From NCBI GenBank assembly GCA_019057975.1, contig JAHLWJ010000236.1, positions 1 through 6,940 of the forward strand: a stretch of 6,940 nucleotides of DNA, given 5' to 3'. A model generated the notes under the pieces. The model saw only the letters and a program-made list of their open reading frames with translations. It was not told the origin of the DNA and did no database searches. Position 1 is the stretch's first letter. Each line of letters starts with the position of its first letter. Shown piece after piece: positions 1 to 6,940 of the stretch. This DNA is from Promethearchaeota archaeon. GTDB lineage: Archaea > Asgardarchaeota > Lokiarchaeia > Sigynarchaeales > SOKP01. A program made the position numbers and the translations under genes.

Positions 1-1145
1 ACCTCCTCCCAGGGATTATTGCAATGAAATTGGCAAGAGGGATTAGATATATTTTCATTGATCGGAAGATGCTCTATATGATCTGGTAATTTTAATTTCA
101 GATTATTTGATTCTGCCAGTTGATAAGCATTTTGAAATTCATTTATTATTTCTTCATAGTTTTGAAGCATCCAATTATTTTCTTTCGAGTTTGTCTTAAC
201 TACATTGACAATTACCCCACCTAATCCCATATTTGCTGCTAGTTTCACCACATTAGAGATTTCACGAATGTTGCATTCCATTAGCGTAAAAATAATCTGC
301 CCCTGTAATGGATCCGAAATGTTTTTTCCAATGTATCTTAAGTTTGCTATAAAATTCTTGAAATTCGCACCTCTTCTTATCGATTCGAATAGAGACGCAG
401 AAGAGCTATCGCATGAGATTAAAAAGTTAGTATTATATTGAATTAATTTTTCCCAAATTTTATTATTAGTATGAGTTAGATTAGTAACTATTTCTAATTG
501 AGCGGGTAATTCACTTATAATACTTAAATATTCAAGAAAGTTCGGTATTATTGTAGATTCTCCCAGACCATTTAATCGGATTAAATCTACTTCTGGAAAA
601 AACTTCTCAGAGAGGGAATATAACAAATCTAACGAGAGATTCCTTGAAGAATCATATCCATTCTTACCAATTCCACACATTATACAATTTAAATTACAGT
701 TATTTGTCAGTTCTAGCAAGATTTTTTTAGGAAAGGAGCAGCTCTTTTTAATTCCACTATTTTCAAGTTCTAAGAATTTATTCCACCATTTTTCTAAAAA
801 CTTAATTAGAAATTGGTCTTCTATAGCCAAATTAGGAGTATAATTAAAATTTTTCATCCACTGAAAGGTGTTATATAAGAAATATTGACCTACTTTGAAA
901 AACCACTCGTTATCTTTACTATACAAAACATTTTTAACCCGTTCTTTCATATTAGCTTCAATTTTCAGTAATAAATTGTCTAGCAATTCGTACATAAAAG
1001 GTTCTCGGCCAATTTTCTTTTTAAATTCGTTGATTCGCCTACTAAGTTGGGTGTATTCATAACTTAAATCATATCTTTTAAAATAATTATTATTAACTGT
1101 TTTAAAAATCTCTCTGGCTTCTTTTAAAACGAATAAATTCCTCAT
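1..1145 (-). CDS. Radical SAM/SPASM-type enzyme with helical N-terminal extension (3' end outside window)
   Basis: Minus-strand reading gives 381 open codons from ATG at 1145 to the window edge, so the C-terminus is missing. The radical SAM core begins with the CxxxCxxC cluster motif CNLNCIMC at residues 150-157 (Cys150, 154, 157), whose cysteines should bind the 4Fe-4S cluster that cleaves S-adenosylmethionine. GLGES at 193-197 takes the place of the usual GGEP-like SAM-contact motif. A stretch reading IRRGANFKNFIANL is typical of SPASM-family members. Cys371 and Cys375 followed by NNPWEE look like the start of a SPASM auxiliary-cluster domain, where the window ends. Residues 1-140 are mostly helical, aromatic- and lysine-rich, and match no domain I recognise. 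The start overlaps the upstream stop (ATGA, 1142-1145), and GGAGG lies 8 nt upstream at 1154-1158, so the start is secure. Family members modify peptides, proteins or small molecules; the substrate here is unknown. Confidence 0.9.
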   Translation of the reverse strand, partial: MRNLFVLKEAREIFKTVNNNYFKRYDLSYEYTQLSRRINEFKKKIGREPFMYELLDNLLLKIEANMKERVKNVLYSKDNEWFFKVGQYFLYNTFQWMKNFNYTPNLAIEDQFLIKFLEKWWNKFLELENSGIKKSCSFPKKILLELTNNCNLNCIMCGIGKNGYDSSRNLSLDLLYSLSEKFFPEVDLIRLNGLGESTIIPNFLEYLSIISELPAQLEIVTNLTHTNNKIWEKLIQYNTNFLISCDSSSASLFESIRRGANFKNFIANLRYIGKNISDPLQGQIIFTLMECNIREISNVVKLAANMGLGGVIVNVVKTNSKENNWMLQNYEEIINEFQNAYQLAESNNLKLKLPDHIEHLPINENISNPSCQFHCNNPWEE

Positions 1146-1402
1146 TTAACCATCCTCCTAAGAGATTTTTTATATTTATTAGTTTCCAGTATCCATCCTA
1201 AATTATATGCAATTCTCTGAAAAATACGTAAAACTATGAATTTCATTCTTTTATAGGATTTCAATTTATTTGAGCTATAGGAATACCATTGATTTTTAAG
1301 ATCATTCACTACTTCTTTGATTTTTAACGGTGGTCTTAAAGTATTATAACTCCATCCCGGTTCCCTTATTTCTGAAAATTTTTTAGAATCAAATAAAGTC
1401 AT
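1142..1402 (-). CDS. 86-residue ORF, probable detached C-terminal segment of the glycosyltransferase
   Basis: The small basic protein has no cysteines. Residues 22-28 read LRPPLKI and residues 53-73 form a hydrophobic, positively charged helix (RMKFIVLRIFQRIAYNLGWIL). From memory, family-2 glycosyltransferases often end with such an RPPL-type segment and a helix of the type LAYxxG. Directly upstream is a GT2 domain that stops early for this layout, and the two ORFs together (249 + 86 residues) give a usual GT2 length. I therefore infer that this is the C-terminal part of that enzyme, either natively split or separated by a frameshift. It has its own ATG at 1402 with GGAGG at 1409-1413 (6 nt spacing), which supports independent translation. 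Its TGA overlaps the ATG of the next gene. It could instead be an unrelated small protein; a peptide substrate for the radical SAM enzymes seems less likely. Confidence 0.65.
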   Translation of the reverse strand: MTLFDSKKFSEIREPGWSYNTLRPPLKIKEVVNDLKNQWYSYSSNKLKSYKRMKFIVLRIFQRIAYNLGWILETNKYKKSLRRMVK

Positions 1403-1403
1403 T

Positions 1404-2153
1404 TCAATCCTCCATAATTAAGGATGCTTGGTTATAAAAATTCTTGAATGTAATTTCAGCACATCCTTTTCCATATCTATAAAATGTCTTAAGAAATGAA
1501 ATTATGGAAGTACGATAATCATGTAATACCACCATATTTTTCTCAAATCCAAACATATAACCGTGCTTTGCCAATTTAAAACTAAGACCATTATCTTCAC
1601 CTCCGGGGTATTTATGAGTCTCATCGAATCCATTAACTTCAAGTAAACAATTTTTCAGATAACAAGCATTAGCTGTTACTAAATATTGGTTATATTTTGG
1701 AGGCTCTAGAATACGATGGTAAGAATAATATTCACTTACAGCACCTTTTCTAAAATTAAATACTTTTCCGCCAATACCTGCTATTTCTTTTCTTTCCCAG
1801 TACCGTGATTTCATTATTGAACTTATCCAAGAAGGATGAAGGATGCAATCATCGTCTGTAAAAGCAATCGCATCAGATGAAGCGAGTTGTATTCCAATGT
1901 TTCTTGCTGCTCCAGGACCTAGAGCCTCGGAATTATTAAAGACAATAGGTACGAAGTTATGGTTATCACACTCCCAGCTTTTAAGGAGATACTGTGTTTG
2001 ATCGACTGAACCATCATTTACTATAATAACCTCATCTGGCTCTAAATTAAGAGCTTCAATAGATTTCAAAAGACGCTGAAGTATTTTAAACCTATTATGT
2101 GTTGGAATTACTAAAGAAATGGTTTTAGGCTTGAAAATCCTCAACTCCCTCAA
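1404..2153 (-). CDS. Family 2 glycosyltransferase (GT-A fold), catalytic domain
   Basis: A nucleotide-sugar-dependent glycosyltransferase with the hallmarks of CAZy family GT2: first strand ISLVIPTHNR at residues 12-21, VNDGSVDQT at 45-53 (nucleotide-binding Asp47), GPGAARNIG at 79-87, the metal-binding DXD-type FTDDDC at 98-103, NACYL at 162-166, and GGEDNGL at 184-190, whose Glu-Asp pair is at the position of the catalytic base. RYGKG near residue 226 is typical of the region after the catalytic core. The protein ends soon after that, and the expected C-terminal segment appears in another frame in the next ORF (1142-1402). Acceptor and sugar are unknown; typical roles are glycan, lipid or protein glycosylation at the cytoplasmic face. 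The drawn TTG start at 2153 overlaps the upstream gene by 29 bp and has no ribosome binding site. TTG at 2144 or ATT at 2138 (behind GGGAG at 2145-2149) are alternatives, and all leave the fold intact. Confidence 0.88.
   Translation of the reverse strand: MRELRIFKPKTISLVIPTHNRFKILQRLLKSIEALNLEPDEVIIVNDGSVDQTQYLLKSWECDNHNFVPIVFNNSEALGPGAARNIGIQLASSDAIAFTDDDCILHPSWISSIMKSRYWERKEIAGIGGKVFNFRKGAVSEYYSYHRILEPPKYNQYLVTANACYLKNCLLEVNGFDETHKYPGGEDNGLSFKLAKHGYMFGFEKNMVVLHDYRTSIISFLKTFYRYGKGCAEITFKNFYNQASLIMED
1409..1413 (-). promoter_or_regulatory. Ribosome binding site (GGAGG) of the 86-residue ORF
   Basis: A perfect GGAGG on the minus strand lies 6 nt before the ATG at 1402 and inside the last codons of the glycosyltransferase ORF. 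It argues that the 86-residue C-terminal piece is translated on its own and that the split is not merely a sequencing error. It could also be a chance result of the ATG-GAG-GAT codons that end the upstream ORF. Confidence 0.65.
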
Positions 2154-3111
2154 TTTTTTTTGCTATTCTATCCCATAAAAAATGATCCCAACACGAAGAA
2201 TTTGGAGGAAGTGAACAAGAAAAAGTCTCTAATCTTTTTAAAATGGAACTAAATCTTTCCTCTTTAATATTTCCATAATGATTTGATGTAAGATAGCTTT
2301 CTGAAATACAAGGGAATACCTCACCATCAGAATTGATTATTATTTGTTTTTTCCCCGCCCAACAATCCGCTTTGTGAGAAAAGTTTCCGAAAGTATATAT
2401 TTTTAGAAAATCTCTCAACACTCGATTAGGAAAATTTAGTTTCTTATCGTATTCAAGTTCATTCAATTGATCGATTATAATTTGGATCTCCGATCTTTGG
2501 AATTCATTGTATGCTTTTGGGTTATCAGTGAAAATCGATGGGCAGACTAAACCAAGTGAAATTTCTATCCCCTTGTCGTAATAATAATCAACAAACTTAC
2601 CTATTTTGTGAAAGTTTTCGCGAGAAATGACCGAATGAAGTGATATAGATCGTTTCTTCCCATTATTGAATTTATTCTGGTAAAATTTAGCTAATTCATG
2701 AATTTTTTTGATTCTTTTCATTGAGGTCTCTGGATCAACTCTTTTATAATTAGGGTATGAAAAGTTTTCAAAAGAGGCAACTACTTCAGCATCATAGCTA
2801 TTAGTGTTGAATAATGCTTCATACATTTCTTGCCTATAAATTTTTAGGTTAGTAATAAGTCTCAAGTTAATATTAGATGCTTTTCCTACAACTTTTATGA
2901 TCTCTATGATATCCTGCCTAATTGATGGTTCCCCTCCTAAGAAACAGAAATAGTTAAATCCCTCCTTTAAGGCATCTTCCAAACAATCTTTGATTGCATC
3001 GAATGATAGTTTTTCTGAAGCGTTCGAAGGATCATTTTCTCCTTGACAATAAACGCAATTATTATTGCAACGATTGGTAATTTTAAAATCTAGCCACTTA
3101 AATTGATTCAA
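2125..3111 (-). CDS. Radical SAM enzyme with SPASM-like C-terminal cysteines
   Basis: A complete 328-residue radical SAM protein. The cluster motif CNNNCVYC occupies residues 15-22 (Cys15, 19, 22) after the strand WLDFKITNR, and GGEP at 59-62 is the SAM amino-group contact motif. The C-terminal part has Cys250 (DCWAGKKQIIINSDGEVFPC) and Cys268, then GNI at 280-282, then Cys299 and Cys307. This is the layout of a SPASM or truncated SPASM domain carrying one or more extra Fe-S clusters. Enzymes of this type (PqqE, MoaA and sactisynthase relatives) perform radical chemistry on peptides or small molecules; the substrate is not evident. The start is TTG at 3111, supported by AAGGAGG at 3121-3127 (9 nt spacing) and by the radical SAM motif falling at the usual distance from the N-terminus. 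It overlaps the nuclease gene by 14 bp and the glycosyltransferase ORF by up to 29 bp, so it is probably translated as part of the same operon. Confidence 0.93.
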   Translation of the reverse strand: MNQFKWLDFKITNRCNNNCVYCQGENDPSNASEKLSFDAIKDCLEDALKEGFNYFCFLGGEPSIRQDIIEIIKVVGKASNINLRLITNLKIYRQEMYEALFNTNSYDAEVVASFENFSYPNYKRVDPETSMKRIKKIHELAKFYQNKFNNGKKRSISLHSVISRENFHKIGKFVDYYYDKGIEISLGLVCPSIFTDNPKAYNEFQRSEIQIIIDQLNELEYDKKLNFPNRVLRDFLKIYTFGNFSHKADCWAGKKQIIINSDGEVFPCISESYLTSNHYGNIKEERFSSILKRLETFSCSLPPNSSCWDHFLWDRIAKKIEGVEDFQA

Positions 3112-3562
3112 TTGCTCTATCCTCCTTTAAATAACTAGATTGAATTGAGTTCAGAAGATCTGTTAAATTAGGTTTCAAAATAACATCATTGAAGACTAAA
3201 CCAAATTTGATAAGTTGTAGTCCACTAATATCATAATCTCTAAAACAGTCATTTGAAATGATTACTGTAGTGTTTGGATATCTTTTAGCATACTCTATTA
3301 AAAAGTCATCTGCTCGCACTCCTTTTGGACAGTCTATAATTTCTCCGCACTTGTAGTATTCCTCTAATTTATCTCGGTTATCAATTCTATATTTTAGTGA
3401 AGCATCCGTTAATAATTGATATTCTATACCATACTTTTTATTAAGTTTCTTTAAATAATTAATTAGTATCTCCAAAGTATCTAATTTGGCTTTTTTCTGT
3501 TCATTCCTTACAAAAAAAGCTATGTTGGAACCATCAACCAAAATTTTAGTTTTGTTATTCAT
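3098..3562 (-). CDS. NYN/PIN-fold ribonuclease, Zc3h12a-like
   Basis: A 154-residue protein made of a single NYN-type nuclease domain. Visible acidic motifs are ILVDGSNIAF at residues 7-16 (Asp10, Asn13), RADDFLIEYA at 83-92 (Asp85, Asp86) and VIISNDCFRDY at 100-110 (Asp105, Asp109). The SNDxFRD signature is characteristic of the Zc3h12a/MCPIP1 (Regnase-1) ribonuclease family, whose acidic cluster binds Mg2+ for RNA cleavage. The zinc finger and other eukaryotic domains are absent, so target choice must come from elsewhere. It is the first gene of the minus-strand operon. ATG at 3562 follows AGGTGG at 3570-3575 by 7 nt. Its TAA overlaps the radical SAM start by 14 bp, implying coupling to that enzyme. 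Activity on RNA is inferred from the family; a toxin, defence nuclease or RNA-processing role are all possible. Confidence 0.85.
   Translation of the reverse strand: MNNKTKILVDGSNIAFFVRNEQKKAKLDTLEILINYLKKLNKKYGIEYQLLTDASLKYRIDNRDKLEEYYKCGEIIDCPKGVRADDFLIEYAKRYPNTTVIISNDCFRDYDISGLQLIKFGLVFNDVILKPNLTDLLNSIQSSYLKEDRAIESI
3121..3127 (-). promoter_or_regulatory. Ribosome binding site (AAGGAGG) fixing a TTG start
   Basis: AAGGAGG on the minus strand sits 9 nt before TTG at 3111. No ATG is available near the N-terminus of the radical SAM protein, so this site decides the start. It lies within the 3' end of the nuclease gene, which fits coupled translation. Confidence 0.8.
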
Positions 3563-3569
3563 ATTTAAA

Positions 3570-3575
3570 CCACCT
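3570..3575 (-). promoter_or_regulatory. Ribosome binding site (AGGTGG) of the nuclease gene
   Basis: AGGTGG on the minus strand, 7 nt before ATG at 3562, matches the GGTG part of the 16S 3'-end complement. If the TATA-like element at 3598-3605 is real, transcription would begin about here and the leader would be only some 10-15 nt long. Confidence 0.6.
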
Positions 3576-3597
3576 ATAAATTGTATATTTCAAGCAA

Positions 3598-3610
3598 TAT
3601 TTATACTTTC
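3598..3610 (-). promoter_or_regulatory. Archaeal-type promoter (BRE + TATA box) for the minus-strand operon
   Basis: Read on the minus strand, GAAAG (3606-3610) followed directly by TATAAATA (3598-3605) resembles an archaeal BRE plus TATA box. A start site about 26 nt downstream falls near 3575, just before the nuclease start codon. The region is AT-rich, so a chance match cannot be excluded, and the call depends on the host being an archaeon. Confidence 0.55.
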
Positions 3611-3614
3611 ACTA

Positions 3615-3648
3615 ATGATAGTTGATTGTTGACTATCATAGTAACTAT
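3615..3648. promoter_or_regulatory. Candidate operator: two inverted repeats of ATAGT/ACTAT half-sites
   Basis: ATGATAGT at 3615-3622 is the exact reverse complement of ACTATCAT at 3632-3639, with a 9-nt spacer. A second inverted repeat, ATAGT-A-ACTAT, follows at 3638-3648. The core half-site therefore occurs four times in about 31 bp (3618, 3632, 3638, 3644) in alternating orientation. The block lies between the two divergent promoters and touches the plus-strand TATA-like element, which is where a shared repressor or activator would bind. The winged-helix protein encoded next to it is an obvious candidate binder, but this is inference. Confidence 0.6.
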
Positions 3649-3654
3649 TATAAA
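3648..3654 (+). promoter_or_regulatory. TATA-like promoter element for the large winged-helix gene
   Basis: TTATAAA is centred about 27 nt before the GTG at 3678, the usual distance from an archaeal TATA box to the transcription start. No ribosome binding site stands at a working distance from this GTG (AAAGGT at 3652-3657 is too far), so a leaderless mRNA is plausible. A bacterial reading (TTGATT at 3622-3627, TATTAT at 3646-3651, 18-bp spacing) is also possible. Confidence 0.45.
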
Positions 3655-3677
3655 GGTAGAATTCTTATAAATCCATA

Positions 3678-6600
3678 GTGAGAAAATTGAATGAAAAAGA
3701 AAATAAAATTATAGAACTTCTTGAACAATCTCATTTATCGTTTAAGGAATTACATGAAAGTGGGGGAAATTTACTAAGAAGTGAATCAACTCTTAATCGT
3801 TTACTGAAATCGCTCCAGAGGATGAATTATATAGAAGGATTCCCAGTCGATGATCCTAATACCCGTATAAAGAAAAGATATCGCTTGACAAGAAAGTATT
3901 ACCATGAAAAAGAAGAGCAAGGGAAAAAACTACAGCTTTCTAAAATGATTAAATCTAGACTAAATTGGCAGAATGTGTTTGATAGAATGCTCAAGTTTTT
4001 AGAATTTGAATATCCGATGATTTTTCAAAATCCTGAATTATTTGAAGCAAAAGAAATTTATTCAGATTTATTTTCTTATTTGGTTTTTTTCAACATCGAT
4101 TCTGAAACATTGAAATTTAAACCTAAACTCTATTTTGAATTAATACTTTTTTTAATTTTACATCATCCTGATGAAAAATATGAGTCAATTCAACAACAAT
4201 TTGAATTCAATCCAATTGAGTTTCAAGAAGTCATTGAGAATTTTAAAAACAAGAATAAATTGGAAGAATTTGTATACCAAGAACAAAAATCATCGCATAA
4301 AGAAGTATATTATTTGATATCTGATGATCCAATATTATATTTTATACGACAACAAGTAGAAACCTATTTCTTTAAATTTCTACTCTGTTGGCAATTTCCA
4401 GGTGTGTACTTGGAGGATCATTTCGATTTCATTTTTAATTATTCTCACAAAATTCTAGAGGAACTGAATAGTAAATATAATAACCAAAATGAAAAAAATT
4501 TAGTCAGATTCTTTAAAAAGAATAGAATTTGTTTATTAACCTATACTAGAGAATATATACTTGAGTTTTTAGAAAAAATCAATATGGAAACAACCTTAAC
4601 AGACAATGACTACCCATTAGAACTACATACAATTGACCAAAAAGAGGCATATCTTACTGAATTAATTTTATCATCTGAAATATTAACTGGAGTAGAAACA
4701 AGATATTTGGAGTATCATATTGAATCTTTAGCTTTAAATCCAAAAAAAATTGAGGCGATAATTACTAAGATTTTAGTTAGAATTGAAGAGATTTCACAAA
4801 TTGAATTGAAAGCCGAAGAAACTTTGCTTTTAAAATCAAGACTACTTATGCTACTTAGAATATTTTATCATTATAACAAAACTAGTTATACAATTTTTAA
4901 AAAAGAATATAATTCGAAGAGTCAGCGTAATATAATAAGCTACTCAAGTATTTCAGCAGATATTTTTAGCAAAATAAAAGAAATTTTATCCAGTTTAGAC
5001 ACTCGGATTGAAAACATCAAAAAGAATTTCATTATTCGACATTTACTTGAAAGAATAGACCATCTCACTAATAAAATAATAAAATATCCAGATAAGAAAG
5101 CAGAATTTTTTAAATCCGTCCAAGATATCTACGATATTGCATCAGAAAGTTTTTCAGAGAAATCTCAATACCCTTTTTATAAGAAAAAGTGTGAACTTTT
5201 TTTTAAAGATATTGAAATGATTAAAGAATCAGAAATTATATCCATTTTAAGAAAATTGGTTGAATATTACCCAAGAAATAGTGATATCCTAAATTTAGTA
5301 TTTAGATATTTGAATAAAACACAAGATTTGGCAAGAATATTTGAAATAATACGGGGGAATAAATGGTCTTTAAAGGATAAAATATTAATTTTTAAAAGAA
5401 ATGTTTTAAATATACCTTCTGATTTTAATATAATTGAGTTTTTTGATTTAACAACAGAAGATTTTCAATATTTACTAAAATCTTCAACTGAGGATGATTC
5501 AAAATTCCTTTTATATTTACTAAAATCAATAGCGTTTATGTTAGAGCAAAAAGGATCACTTTTTGACTGTTTCTTTATATATTATTTTATATGTATTATA
5601 GAGCAAGGTATAACATTTGATCCTTCAAAGAGAGGATTTATGAACTCCTATTTTTCGTCATTTCATTTTAGTTTAAACCACTTTAAAGCGTATGGACCGG
5701 GATATCTAAATCTATTGAGAATGAAACAACAATACTCTGAAATTTTGTTTTCCTCTTTGGAGTTTAGAGATAGGATTACTAAATTAATATCACAAAATAT
5801 TCGTAAAATTGAAACTAAAAATGAATTTGAAAACATTTTAGCATCATTTCCGATATTATTTGAAAATTTTTCATTATTATCTAGATTTTTTCAACTAGAT
5901 GATGAATTTAATGAAATTATGCATGCTATCGAAAAAGGAATTGAACTAGATAATATAAAAACTAAAGAAAAAGTAATTAAAACCAGTCAAGACATCTCAA
6001 AAGAAGAAAAAGATATCTTAAATATAATCAGTGCCAACTTTAAGGATTACAACAAGAAAACTAAGAGTTTAGATTTCCTTTTATCTCCATTTAATATCGA
6101 TAACTTTTTACATAATATAAATAAAAAAGTAGTTGAAGAAATTCTTCCAAGAACCATTTATCCCCATGATCAACTAACTGAAATTACAAACAAGCAAATA
6201 AAATACGGTATTGGTAAGTTTCCAAATTTAGCGGAATCGAGTCTTTTTAACATTCTTTCCTTTAATTATCCATTTTATAATCGGAATATGAAAGATGAAG
6301 ATTTCAACCTACAATTTTACAATTATTATTACTTTCAGAAAAATCTAGAGGAAAGAGTTCAAGAAACAGATTTGGGTTTAATAGATAATATATTTGGTGT
6401 TGAAAATCGCTCAAAGCATTATCCATTTAATCTTGCTTTTAACAAAAAATATGAAATTCCCAAGGGAAAAGAAGATAATTTTTGGTTTGACCTAATAAAA
6501 GATTTTGAAAACAAGAAGGATGAATTAATTGAATTATTAGATCTTTATCTTTTTCAATCCAGATTTTTTAGCTCATATGAGATTTTTGAAAAACTGGTAG

Positions 6601-6940
6601 TATTAATCCTAAAACGTTATGACTTAAACCGCGCACTACAATATATAAACACATTTCATAATTATCTAATTTGGTTTAATAAAAGATTAAAAAATCCAAG
6701 AACTAATATAACTCCATATACCTTGGGTTTAGAAAATCTCTTCCATATTTTTGATTTAGGTTTTAATACAATAAAAACTAAAATATATTGGGATTTTCGA
6801 GATAGGTATACAGCGACGGATTATATGAAAAAAGCATATAAATCTTTGAACTATTTAGAAGCGAAATCTGAGAATTTATTTGGACTAATATCATTAAATA
6901 ATCTCCAACGAAATTTAAATGCTCTAAGAGAAAAATTGAT
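3678..6940 (+). CDS. Very large protein with tandem winged-helix domains at the N-terminus and long helical body (3' end outside window)
   Basis: An uninterrupted plus-strand frame of 1087 codons runs from GTG at 3678 to the window end; an in-frame TAG at 3657 limits the start to GTG 3678 or TTG 3687. Residues about 5-72 look like a winged helix: helix 5-18, helix 21-28, recognition helix about 35-50 (SESTLNRLLKSLQRMNYIEG), then a basic wing with KKRYRLT at 65-71. Residues about 150-215 look like a second one (YFELILFLILHHP, then NPIEFQEVIENFKNKNKLEEF, then a strand EVYYLIS). The rest is mostly helical, rich in Phe, Ile, Lys, Asn and Glu, with no Walker, protease or nuclease motif and no clear membrane segment, and may be an alpha-solenoid. 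I do not recognise a family for it. The architecture suggests a DNA-binding regulator with a large sensory or scaffold body. It is divergent from the nuclease/radical SAM operon and may control it. Confidence 0.85.
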   Translation, partial: MRKLNEKENKIIELLEQSHLSFKELHESGGNLLRSESTLNRLLKSLQRMNYIEGFPVDDPNTRIKKRYRLTRKYYHEKEEQGKKLQLSKMIKSRLNWQNVFDRMLKFLEFEYPMIFQNPELFEAKEIYSDLFSYLVFFNIDSETLKFKPKLYFELILFLILHHPDEKYESIQQQFEFNPIEFQEVIENFKNKNKLEEFVYQEQKSSHKEVYYLISDDPILYFIRQQVETYFFKFLLCWQFPGVYLEDHFDFIFNYSHKILEELNSKYNNQNEKNLVRFFKKNRICLLTYTREYILEFLEKINMETTLTDNDYPLELHTIDQKEAYLTELILSSEILTGVETRYLEYHIESLALNPKKIEAIITKILVRIEEISQIELKAEETLLLKSRLLMLLRIFYHYNKTSYTIFKKEYNSKSQRNIISYSSISADIFSKIKEILSSLDTRIENIKKNFIIRHLLERIDHLTNKIIKYPDKKAEFFKSVQDIYDIASESFSEKSQYPFYKKKCELFFKDIEMIKESEIISILRKLVEYYPRNSDILNLVFRYLNKTQDLARIFEIIRGNKWSLKDKILIFKRNVLNIPSDFNIIEFFDLTTEDFQYLLKSSTEDDSKFLLYLLKSIAFMLEQKGSLFDCFFIYYFICIIEQGITFDPSKRGFMNSYFSSFHFSLNHFKAYGPGYLNLLRMKQQYSEILFSSLEFRDRITKLISQNIRKIETKNEFENILASFPILFENFSLLSRFFQLDDEFNEIMHAIEKGIELDNIKTKEKVIKTSQDISKEEKDILNIISANFKDYNKKTKSLDFLLSPFNIDNFLHNINKKVVEEILPRTIYPHDQLTEITNKQIKYGIGKFPNLAESSLFNILSFNYPFYNRNMKDEDFNLQFYNYYYFQKNLEERVQETDLGLIDNIFGVENRSKHYPFNLAFNKKYEIPKGKEDNFWFDLIKDFENKKDELIELLDLYLFQSRFFSSYEIFEKLVVLILKRYDLNRALQYINTFHNYLIWFNKRLKNPRTNITPYTLGLENLFHIFDLGFNTIKTKIYWDFRDRYTATDYMKKAYKSLNYLEAKSENLFGLISLNNLQRNLNALREKL

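Follow-up and report, generated by a model that had tools for sequence, protein, structure and literature searches.

Redox cofactors and natural products offer known examples of chemistry that pairs radical S-adenosylmethionine (SAM) enzymes with glycosyltransferases. In the mycofactocin cassette (PMC7491314), a radical SAM/SPASM enzyme, MftC, is accompanied by a GT2 glycosyltransferase, MftF, which glycosylates its product. Another paper (PMC7159879) lists SPASM radical SAM, PIN ribonuclease (RNase), glycosyltransferase and TPR parts in nucleoside triphosphate (NTP)-dependent conflict systems. Here, we analyzed a stretch of 6,940 nucleotides from a Promethearchaeota archaeon (assembly GCA_019057975.1, contig JAHLWJ010000236.1, positions 1 to 6,940; hereafter, the window), which carries, in this order on its minus strand, genes for a Zc3h12a-like nuclease, a radical SAM enzyme (rSAM1), a GT2 glycosyltransferase, an 86-aa protein and a second radical SAM enzyme (rSAM2), and, on its plus strand, a gene for a large winged-helix protein. 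This cassette differs from that of mycofactocin in having two radical SAM enzymes, an RNase and a winged-helix protein, and apparently a separately encoded GT2 tail, and no precursor was found. Its parts list, helical repeats included, is similar to one that occurs across the NTP-dependent conflict systems, which is a likeness of parts and not a comparison of family membership; the cassette showed no NTPase, vWA or peptide gene.

The enzymes of the window fell short of the cut-offs of the described families that they most resemble. MftF was the best NCBIfam model of the GT2, matching at model positions 73-304 with 119.7 bits against a cut-off of 280, and the MftC scores of rSAM1 and rSAM2 were 42.4 and 20.5 bits against 265. 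For both radical SAM enzymes, the best NCBIfam model was the tungsten cofactor oxidoreductase maturase TIGR04317 (67.0 bits for rSAM1 and 81.2 bits for the incomplete rSAM2; cut-off 380), and no tungsten oxidoreductase was seen in the loci that were read. Both also resembled prokaryotic viperins, with weak matches to the PADLOC model pVip (40.6 and 34.7 bits), but their viperin NCBIfam scores were 33.6 and 31.3 bits against a cut-off of 180, rSAM1 has a SPASM domain, and the cassette enzymes are paired with a GT2. SkfB/SuiB-type peptide maturases share 17% identity with rSAM2, which has a helical-looking N-terminal extension in place of the precursor-recognition domain (RRE; order bbb-aaa, PMC12710340) and for which we found no precursor. 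A first-pass annotation of this DNA had named no described system with this gene set, and our literature search, which covered few subscription papers and no preprints, likewise found no publication on it. In a paper on Asgard defense systems, a term search found radical SAM in the reference list alone and glycosyltransferase nowhere (PMC11291487), and another paper tabulates an archaeal Zc3h12a-like protein beside a nucleotide cyclase (PMC11915815).

The genes for rSAM1, rSAM2 and GT2, which we call the core, are conserved as a group in other archaea. Two peptide patterns, scanned against one genome per species from 84,980 species, gave 24 stretches, 6 of which had relatives, in five loci: L001 and L002 from Lokiarchaea, L003 from Sysuiplasma, L004 from Harpocratesius and L005 from Methanophagales. 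Together with the window, all six loci, from three archaeal phyla, contained rSAM1, rSAM2 and GT2 next to one another, in the order rSAM1, rSAM2, GT2 in L004 and L005, and GT2, tail, rSAM2, histidine phosphatase, rSAM1 in L003. The view of the first-pass annotation that these genes form a real conserved unit was upheld. The catalytic motifs are intact, including the radical SAM cysteines, the DxD/ED residues of GT2 and D10/D85/D105 of the nuclease, and the core is almost certainly a functional unit. A reading of the window genes as chance open reading frames (ORFs) was dropped, since their domain scores exceeded the cut-offs and their neighborhood is conserved.

The core is rare and patchily distributed. 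Among 227 genomes from the Asgard phylum, three had rSAM1 at E 1e-30 (G001, G002 and G004); it was found at E 1e-45 in 1 of 392 genomes of the phylum of L005 and 1 of 389 genomes of the phylum of L003, where the genomes were samples from larger groups and the sole matches were the known loci. Four of six scans of viral contigs returned no relative, and the other two gave weak radical SAM matches (one and four loci, 25-29% identity); the viral-contig loci L062 and L064 were rejected as cassette relatives, as their ORFs look like unrelated radical SAM genes. Distant matches at 23-31% identity were present in 6 phage and 7 plasmid records.

In the window, the ORF coordinates bore out the five-gene arrangement and the overlaps that had been claimed for it. 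The nuclease and rSAM1 genes overlap by 14 bp, the 86-aa ORF and rSAM2 by 4 bp, and rSAM1 and GT2 by 29 bp, provided that the TTG at 2153 is the GT2 start; 1 bp separates GT2 from the 86-aa ORF. Most of the genes had been said to have strong ribosome binding sites; by eye, four of the five minus-strand starts have Shine-Dalgarno-like sequences upstream, and the GT2 TTG has none. The window has a G+C content of 28.2%, and scans of it for tRNA and Rfam families gave no matches.

Both rSAM1 (2125..3111, minus strand, 328 aa) and rSAM2 (3..1145, minus strand) are radical SAM enzymes, as judged from their CxxxCxxC motif and PF04055 scores of 55.9 and 40.4 bits, respectively (Pfam cut-off 29.5). The marker of the cassette, rSAM1, has a SPASM-type C-terminus (PF13186, 32.7 bits; cut-off 21.5), and its residues C15, C19, C22, C250, C268 and C307 were invariant, and C299 nearly so, among 31 aligned rows. 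The description of both enzymes as SPASM-type applies to rSAM1; in rSAM2, the C-terminus, where the SPASM region would lie, is cut off by the window edge, and PF13186 did not match the part inside the window. The rSAM2 of the window is 59% identical to the 437-aa rSAM2 of L001; the motif cysteines were invariant among rSAM2 relatives, and five longer ones have a C-terminus with several cysteines. In the protein set, rSAM1 had 107 relatives at E 1e-20. The four organism-named rows at 68-80% identity all came from Promethearchaeota or Candidatus Lokiarchaeota, and those at 34-47% identity include other archaea and the bacterial groups Delongbacteria and Goldiibacteriota. Judged by similarity, the window is Lokiarchaeal.

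Profile comparison placed rSAM1 nearest to the solved structures of a sulfatase maturase, MoaA and a sactipeptide enzyme, and rSAM2 nearest to SkfB. The predicted model of rSAM2 was closest to SkfB, SuiB, BlsE and PqqE, in matches that span model residues 129-437 almost throughout and barely cover the N-terminal extension of about 130 aa, which is modeled as mainly helical with a predicted local distance difference test score (pLDDT) mostly below 70. Homology of this extension to the N-termini of the L004 and L005 GT2 proteins or to the tail protein was considered and found no support. Proteins similar to rSAM2 occurred at E 1e-15 in 53 of 227 Asgard genomes, and under E 1e-100 in G001, G002 and G004 alone. 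Another Asgard genome, G118, has a decayed rSAM2 copy (L088:9297-9764) with five internal stops, 66% identical to the L001 rSAM2 over 157 residues, and tblastn found no other cassette gene within 13 kb of it.

The third core protein (1404..2153, minus strand, 249 aa, true start uncertain) is a GT2 glycosyltransferase, as indicated by PF00535 (91.1 bits; cut-off 23.3) and by D100, D102, E186 and D187 of its DxD and ED motifs, which were invariant in 6 of 6 loci. The GT2 proteins of L004 and L005 are larger, 24-26% identical, and have no tail gene. In L001 and L002, the GT2 frame contains no ATG, GTG or TTG upstream of its first conserved strand, VIPTHN (L001:10940-11030, L002:1040-1115); a Shine-Dalgarno-like run is followed by ATA codons there, and a non-standard start or coupling to termination of rSAM1 is possible. 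A run of eight A residues precedes the GT2 start region in all three rSAM1 genes, those of the window (2125-2160), L001 and L002. A frameshift from rSAM1 into GT2 at this run, considered for want of a standard start in L001 and L002, was set aside, as lysine codons can explain the run.

The 86-aa protein (1142..1402, minus strand), which adjoins GT2 and has no Pfam or NCBIfam match, is associated with GT2 rather than with the radical SAM enzymes. With a highly permissive limit of E 0.5, a profile of its four copies gave matches in 76 of 227 Asgard genomes, of which eight had E of at most 0.002. Ten places were inspected, namely the four cassette copies and six of these eight best genomes, those outside the two known cassettes. 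The association follows from the presence of a GT2 gene beside the tail-like gene in nine of the ten (window, L001, L002, L003, L053-L056 and L058; the exception, L057, has a weak tail match), while a radical SAM gene was adjacent in six of these nine. The GT2 and tail pairs of L053-L055 have a GT2 about 59-62% identical to that of the cassette and no rSAM1- or rSAM2-profile gene nearby. We read the 86-aa protein as a putative GT2 tail encoded by a gene of its own. In M. smegmatis MftF, a membrane helix is predicted for residues 324-346 (PMC7491314), and by analogy the tail protein may correspond to the part of MftF behind the GT2-matching region.

The nuclease (3098..3562, minus strand, 154 aa), which leads the operon, is a Zc3h12a-like NYN/PIN-type ribonuclease by its PF11977 match (34.4 bits; cut-off 23) and its conserved acidic residues: D10, D85 and S103-N104-D105 were invariant in 21 of 21 aligned rows. 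The profile matches to ZC3H12B and ZC3H12C in the PDB were weak (E 0.02 or worse). RNases of animal immunity share the Zc3h12a fold. In the window and L001, the nuclease adjoins the core. Within its first 74 bases, L002 has 23 codons resembling a nuclease C-terminus, a weak match of 5 bits, and in L005 one gene separates a 165-aa PF11977 protein from rSAM1. The genome of L003 has no nuclease match, and the sole match in that of L004 lies about 2.4 Mb away from the core. Because the nuclease is not adjacent to rSAM1 in L003 or L004, it is not essential to the core.

The first-pass annotation had tied the nuclease to the radical SAM genes. For the nuclease family at large, the two are regularly apart: a PF11977-type domain was found at E 1e-6 in 84 of 227 Asgard genomes, in ORFs that range in length from about 100 to 1334 aa and of which, by our own count, some half are short, and of these 84 genomes G001 and G004 alone also hold rSAM1, adjacent in G001 only. 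We picked 20 further short copies from roughly 50, in stretches of 3 to 13.5 kb; 18 had no rSAM1- or rSAM2-profile gene around them and 2 (L108 and L111) had one, and such a gene occurred in 1 of 14 arbitrary control stretches of 1 to 20 kb from cassette genomes (L072). In the close clade, by contrast, this was not so. The C-terminus of 17 of 21 nucleases, the window's included, can be encoded as a DNA overlap with the rSAM1 N-terminus, as in the window (the others being P0119, P0125, P0126 and P0127), although these rows are mutually related and hence are not 17 independent events. Shuffled tails gave a mean of 3.1 and a maximum of 7 (200 sets), random internal 9-mers a mean of 1.4 and a maximum of 4, and rSAM C-termini were compatible in 2 of 107 cases. 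One nuclease, P0117, and one rSAM1 protein, P0013, come from contigs that both have the stated size 5722, and this pair fits the overlap. Elsewhere in Asgard genomes, a Zc3h12a-type nuclease abuts another radical SAM gene with a weak rSAM1 profile match (L108:5346-6653), and ORFs of about 570-650 aa with a Zc3h12a-type domain recur (e.g. L014-L016, L018 and L019).

The gene set had been taken to close at position 3562, but the divergent winged-helix gene (3678..6938, plus strand) is its sixth member. It encodes at least 1087 aa with a long helical remainder and runs off the window end. We count it in the unit because its L001 homologue, 29% identical over 1128 columns, is placed likewise and because relatives share contig sizes with rSAM1 proteins. 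In a 5.8-billion protein set, in which the 7991 candidates sharing most words were scored, the L001 protein had 4 relatives, itself included. Two of these come from contigs of stated sizes 144374 and 20579, equal to those of rSAM1 proteins P0009 and P0004, and the fourth has no such sign of linkage. Among 227 Asgard genomes, this large protein occurred in one, that of L001. Its predicted model has a winged helix at residues 21-83 and helices thereafter, and fold searches with it gave template modeling scores of mostly 0.08 to 0.14 by model length (e.g. the helical SKI3), too weak for use. The protein is a probable regulator or sensor of the cassette. Near the core, L004 encodes a large protein of 1071 aa and L005 one of 505 aa; neither showed a detectable relationship to it, and both were rejected as homologues.

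Within the 115-bp intergenic region between the nuclease and the winged-helix gene lies a dyad, ATGATAGT-N9-ACTATCAT (3615..3639), which is a candidate operator. The weaker counterpart in L001, GATAGT-N9-ACTA at 9474-9492, likewise lies between the nuclease and the large gene, so that both loci that cover this region have a dyad there. In the window, the pattern GATAGT-N9-ACTA was confined to that single site, where it matched on both strands (expected 0.01), and the 20,969 bases of L001 contained it once (expected 0.05; present in 5 of 100 shuffles). These expectations are flattering, as the pattern was written after both promoters had been viewed. The L001 dyad lies inside the longest ORF of the large gene, yet upstream of codon 14, where its aligned relatives begin.

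The nuclease and the winged-helix gene, together termed the head, have diverged far more than the core. In four loci, two of which were assembled only from contigs of equal stated size, rSAM1 was 79-84% identical in all six pairs, whereas the large protein was 59% and 71% identical within two pairs and 28-30% between them. Similarly, the nucleases of the window and contig 5722 were 60% identical to each other and 44% and 43% identical to that of L001, against 80, 79 and 81% for rSAM1. The branching orders of rSAM1 and the large protein need not conflict in these four loci; the telling feature is the long split of the head. We built a maximum-likelihood tree of 46 rSAM1 proteins and four outgroup rows, from which everything upstream of WLDFK had been removed. 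On this tree, the window-type start M[ND]QF[KR], found in 8 rows, required 7 changes (6-7 in bootstraps), compared with a shuffled mean of 7.6. Of 500 shuffles, 172 were as low, and no fewer than 3 changes are forced by well-supported branches. The window rSAM1 itself groups with P0001 (95% identical) and P0002, both of the second start type, with support of 100/99.

Several observations weigh against free exchange. The second start type (14 rows) was clustered, with 8 changes against a shuffled mean of 12.4 (3 of 500 as low), as were the remaining types (24 rows), with 9 against 17.0 (0 of 500), and all junction labels together, with 13 against 22.6 (0 of 200). Of the inner branches of the tree, 13 of 46 are open. 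The junction label is a proxy taken from source-predicted rSAM1 N-termini, and it is the overlap test that ties a start type to a nuclease type. Against the wider reading of the cassette given below, the nuclease does not adjoin rSAM1 in L003 and L004, and the winged-helix model has a mean pLDDT of 55, that of a poor model. Because the window type is scattered but the labels overall are clustered, junctions seem to be inherited in part, with occasional exchange. An exchange of head and core is in our judgment somewhat probable, a confidence that we lowered because the junction labels as a whole cluster on the tree.

The neighborhoods of the cassette bear on a role in defense. In L001-L005, 28 closed ORFs with a length of 120 aa or more lie outside the cassettes without overlapping one another, and all were scanned with PADLOC. 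As a control, we chose 28 ORFs at random, separately for each genome, from the 142 that arbitrary stretches of these five genomes contain. With a threshold of 50 bits, 6 of 28 cassette neighbors matched, compared with 0 of 28 controls (Fisher p 0.023), a p-value that is optimistic, since the defense-type matches cluster in three loci. They were AAA/IetA-like, PDC-S26 and AbiV proteins in L001, a CARF protein in L002, and a type II methyltransferase and restriction enzyme in L004; a Cas3-like ORF of L002, whose frame is open to the contig end, was excluded from the count. Just under 50 bits were Cas6 (47.3) on one side of this comparison and a Csa3-like protein (48.6) on the other. An AAA ATPase, a PD-(D/E)XK protein and an AbiV-like HEPN protein flank the L001 cassette (L001:1377-5579 and 13761-20125) in an arrangement that resembles a defense island. 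Against a defense association, the 50-bit threshold was chosen after the scores had been seen, at E 1e-5 the counts were 9 of 28 and 4 of 28 (p 0.20), and L003 and L005 had no neighbors that matched PADLOC. The six window proteins themselves (E 0.1) gave no clear PADLOC match to a known anti-phage system, with weak partial matches to pVip for rSAM1 and rSAM2 and to mad5 (11.3 bits) for GT2. The first-pass suggestion that the nuclease hints at defense thus received moderate support, from the discordance of head and core and from the neighborhood, and that the cassette is a conflict system is a tentative proposal.

The reading that we put forward, as a serious possibility short of a probability, is that of a horizontally spread archaeal cassette with a constant chemistry core and an exchangeable RNase/regulator head, perhaps a conflict system. 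The core, with its separate tail, would make a single type of product, be it a compound, a peptide or a protein, by radical chemistry first and glycosylation second. The enzyme types of the conserved core favor the modification pathway proposed by the first-pass annotation, and a radical-modified, glycosylated product is, on balance, what the core probably makes. The head, transcribed divergently around the dyad, would control or use this product: the winged-helix protein would probably bind the dyad and sense the product or an invader, and the RNase would be a co-expressed, RNA-cutting effector. A swappable head that reads a constant product would be the most economical account of constant chemistry beside a variable RNase and regulator, and a defense-like role would fit a head that is swapped while the chemistry stays constant. 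A bolder proposal is that of a new class of archaeal conflict systems, spread between Asgard and other archaea, in which a signal or modified molecule made by the core would be read by an interchangeable head that kills or silences and that is exchanged by recombination where the nuclease and rSAM1 genes join; it is unlikely at present.

Ordinary biosynthesis, although somewhat unlikely, would account for part of these observations: the core would make a glycosylated metabolite, cofactor or surface glycan, the winged-helix protein would regulate it, and the RNase would trim or repress the operon mRNA. Indeed, L004 adjoins a biosynthetic-looking operon with a GT4-radical SAM fusion and a WG-repeat methyltransferase, and in L003 a histidine phosphatase sits inside the cassette, between rSAM2 and rSAM1; the cassette is therefore compatible with such a role. 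The L004 fusion is an 832-aa protein (L004:2975-5473) whose GT4-like and radical SAM parts are separate neighbors in L089 (37% and 46% identical). Two Asgard clusters, L089:1463-9485 (G047) and L090:43-5836 (G093), pair an rSAM2-like enzyme with a histidine phosphatase, a carbamoyltransferase (that of L090 assigned by BLAST to that of L089), a WG-repeat-like protein and an epimerase-type gene, and in L089 these are joined by a GT4, another radical SAM gene and a nuclease of the Zc3h12a type. However, head exchange and defense-type neighbors would not be expected of plain biosynthesis, and the six loci shared no further family beyond core, tail, nuclease and large gene among ORFs of at least 100 aa (BLAST E 1e-6; the flanks of the window and L005 are short). 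A pathway for a ribosomally synthesized and post-translationally modified peptide, in which both radical SAM enzymes modify an unlinked or non-standard precursor that is then glycosylated in the manner of mycofactocin, would agree with MftF as the top GT2 model and with the peptide maturases nearest to rSAM2, but it is improbable: the scores are far under the mycofactocin cut-offs, and 154 short ORFs outside long ones in the six loci gave no between-locus match at E 0.01 that would suggest a shared precursor, in a search in which the flanks of the window, L002 and L005 were short and a precursor may be unlinked. Still less probable is a role in RNA modification, in which the core would build a hypermodified or glycosylated base and the nuclease would cut RNA that lacks it. 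An RNase-type first gene that overlaps genes for modifying enzymes would suit it, yet the core proteins have no match to an RNA-binding domain in Pfam, the nuclease is not beside the core in two loci, and head and core seem to be exchanged independently, while a pair of the restriction-modification kind should coevolve. The earlier suggestion of RNA as the substrate of the modifying enzymes found no support in this analysis.

If head exchange is real, this would be an instance, among the archaea that are related to eukaryotes, of radical SAM and glycosyltransferase chemistry put to use in a modular conflict system, with rSAM1 as a clean marker by which to locate it. Even if the cassette serves plain biosynthesis, it marks a class of Asgard product for which our literature search found no description.

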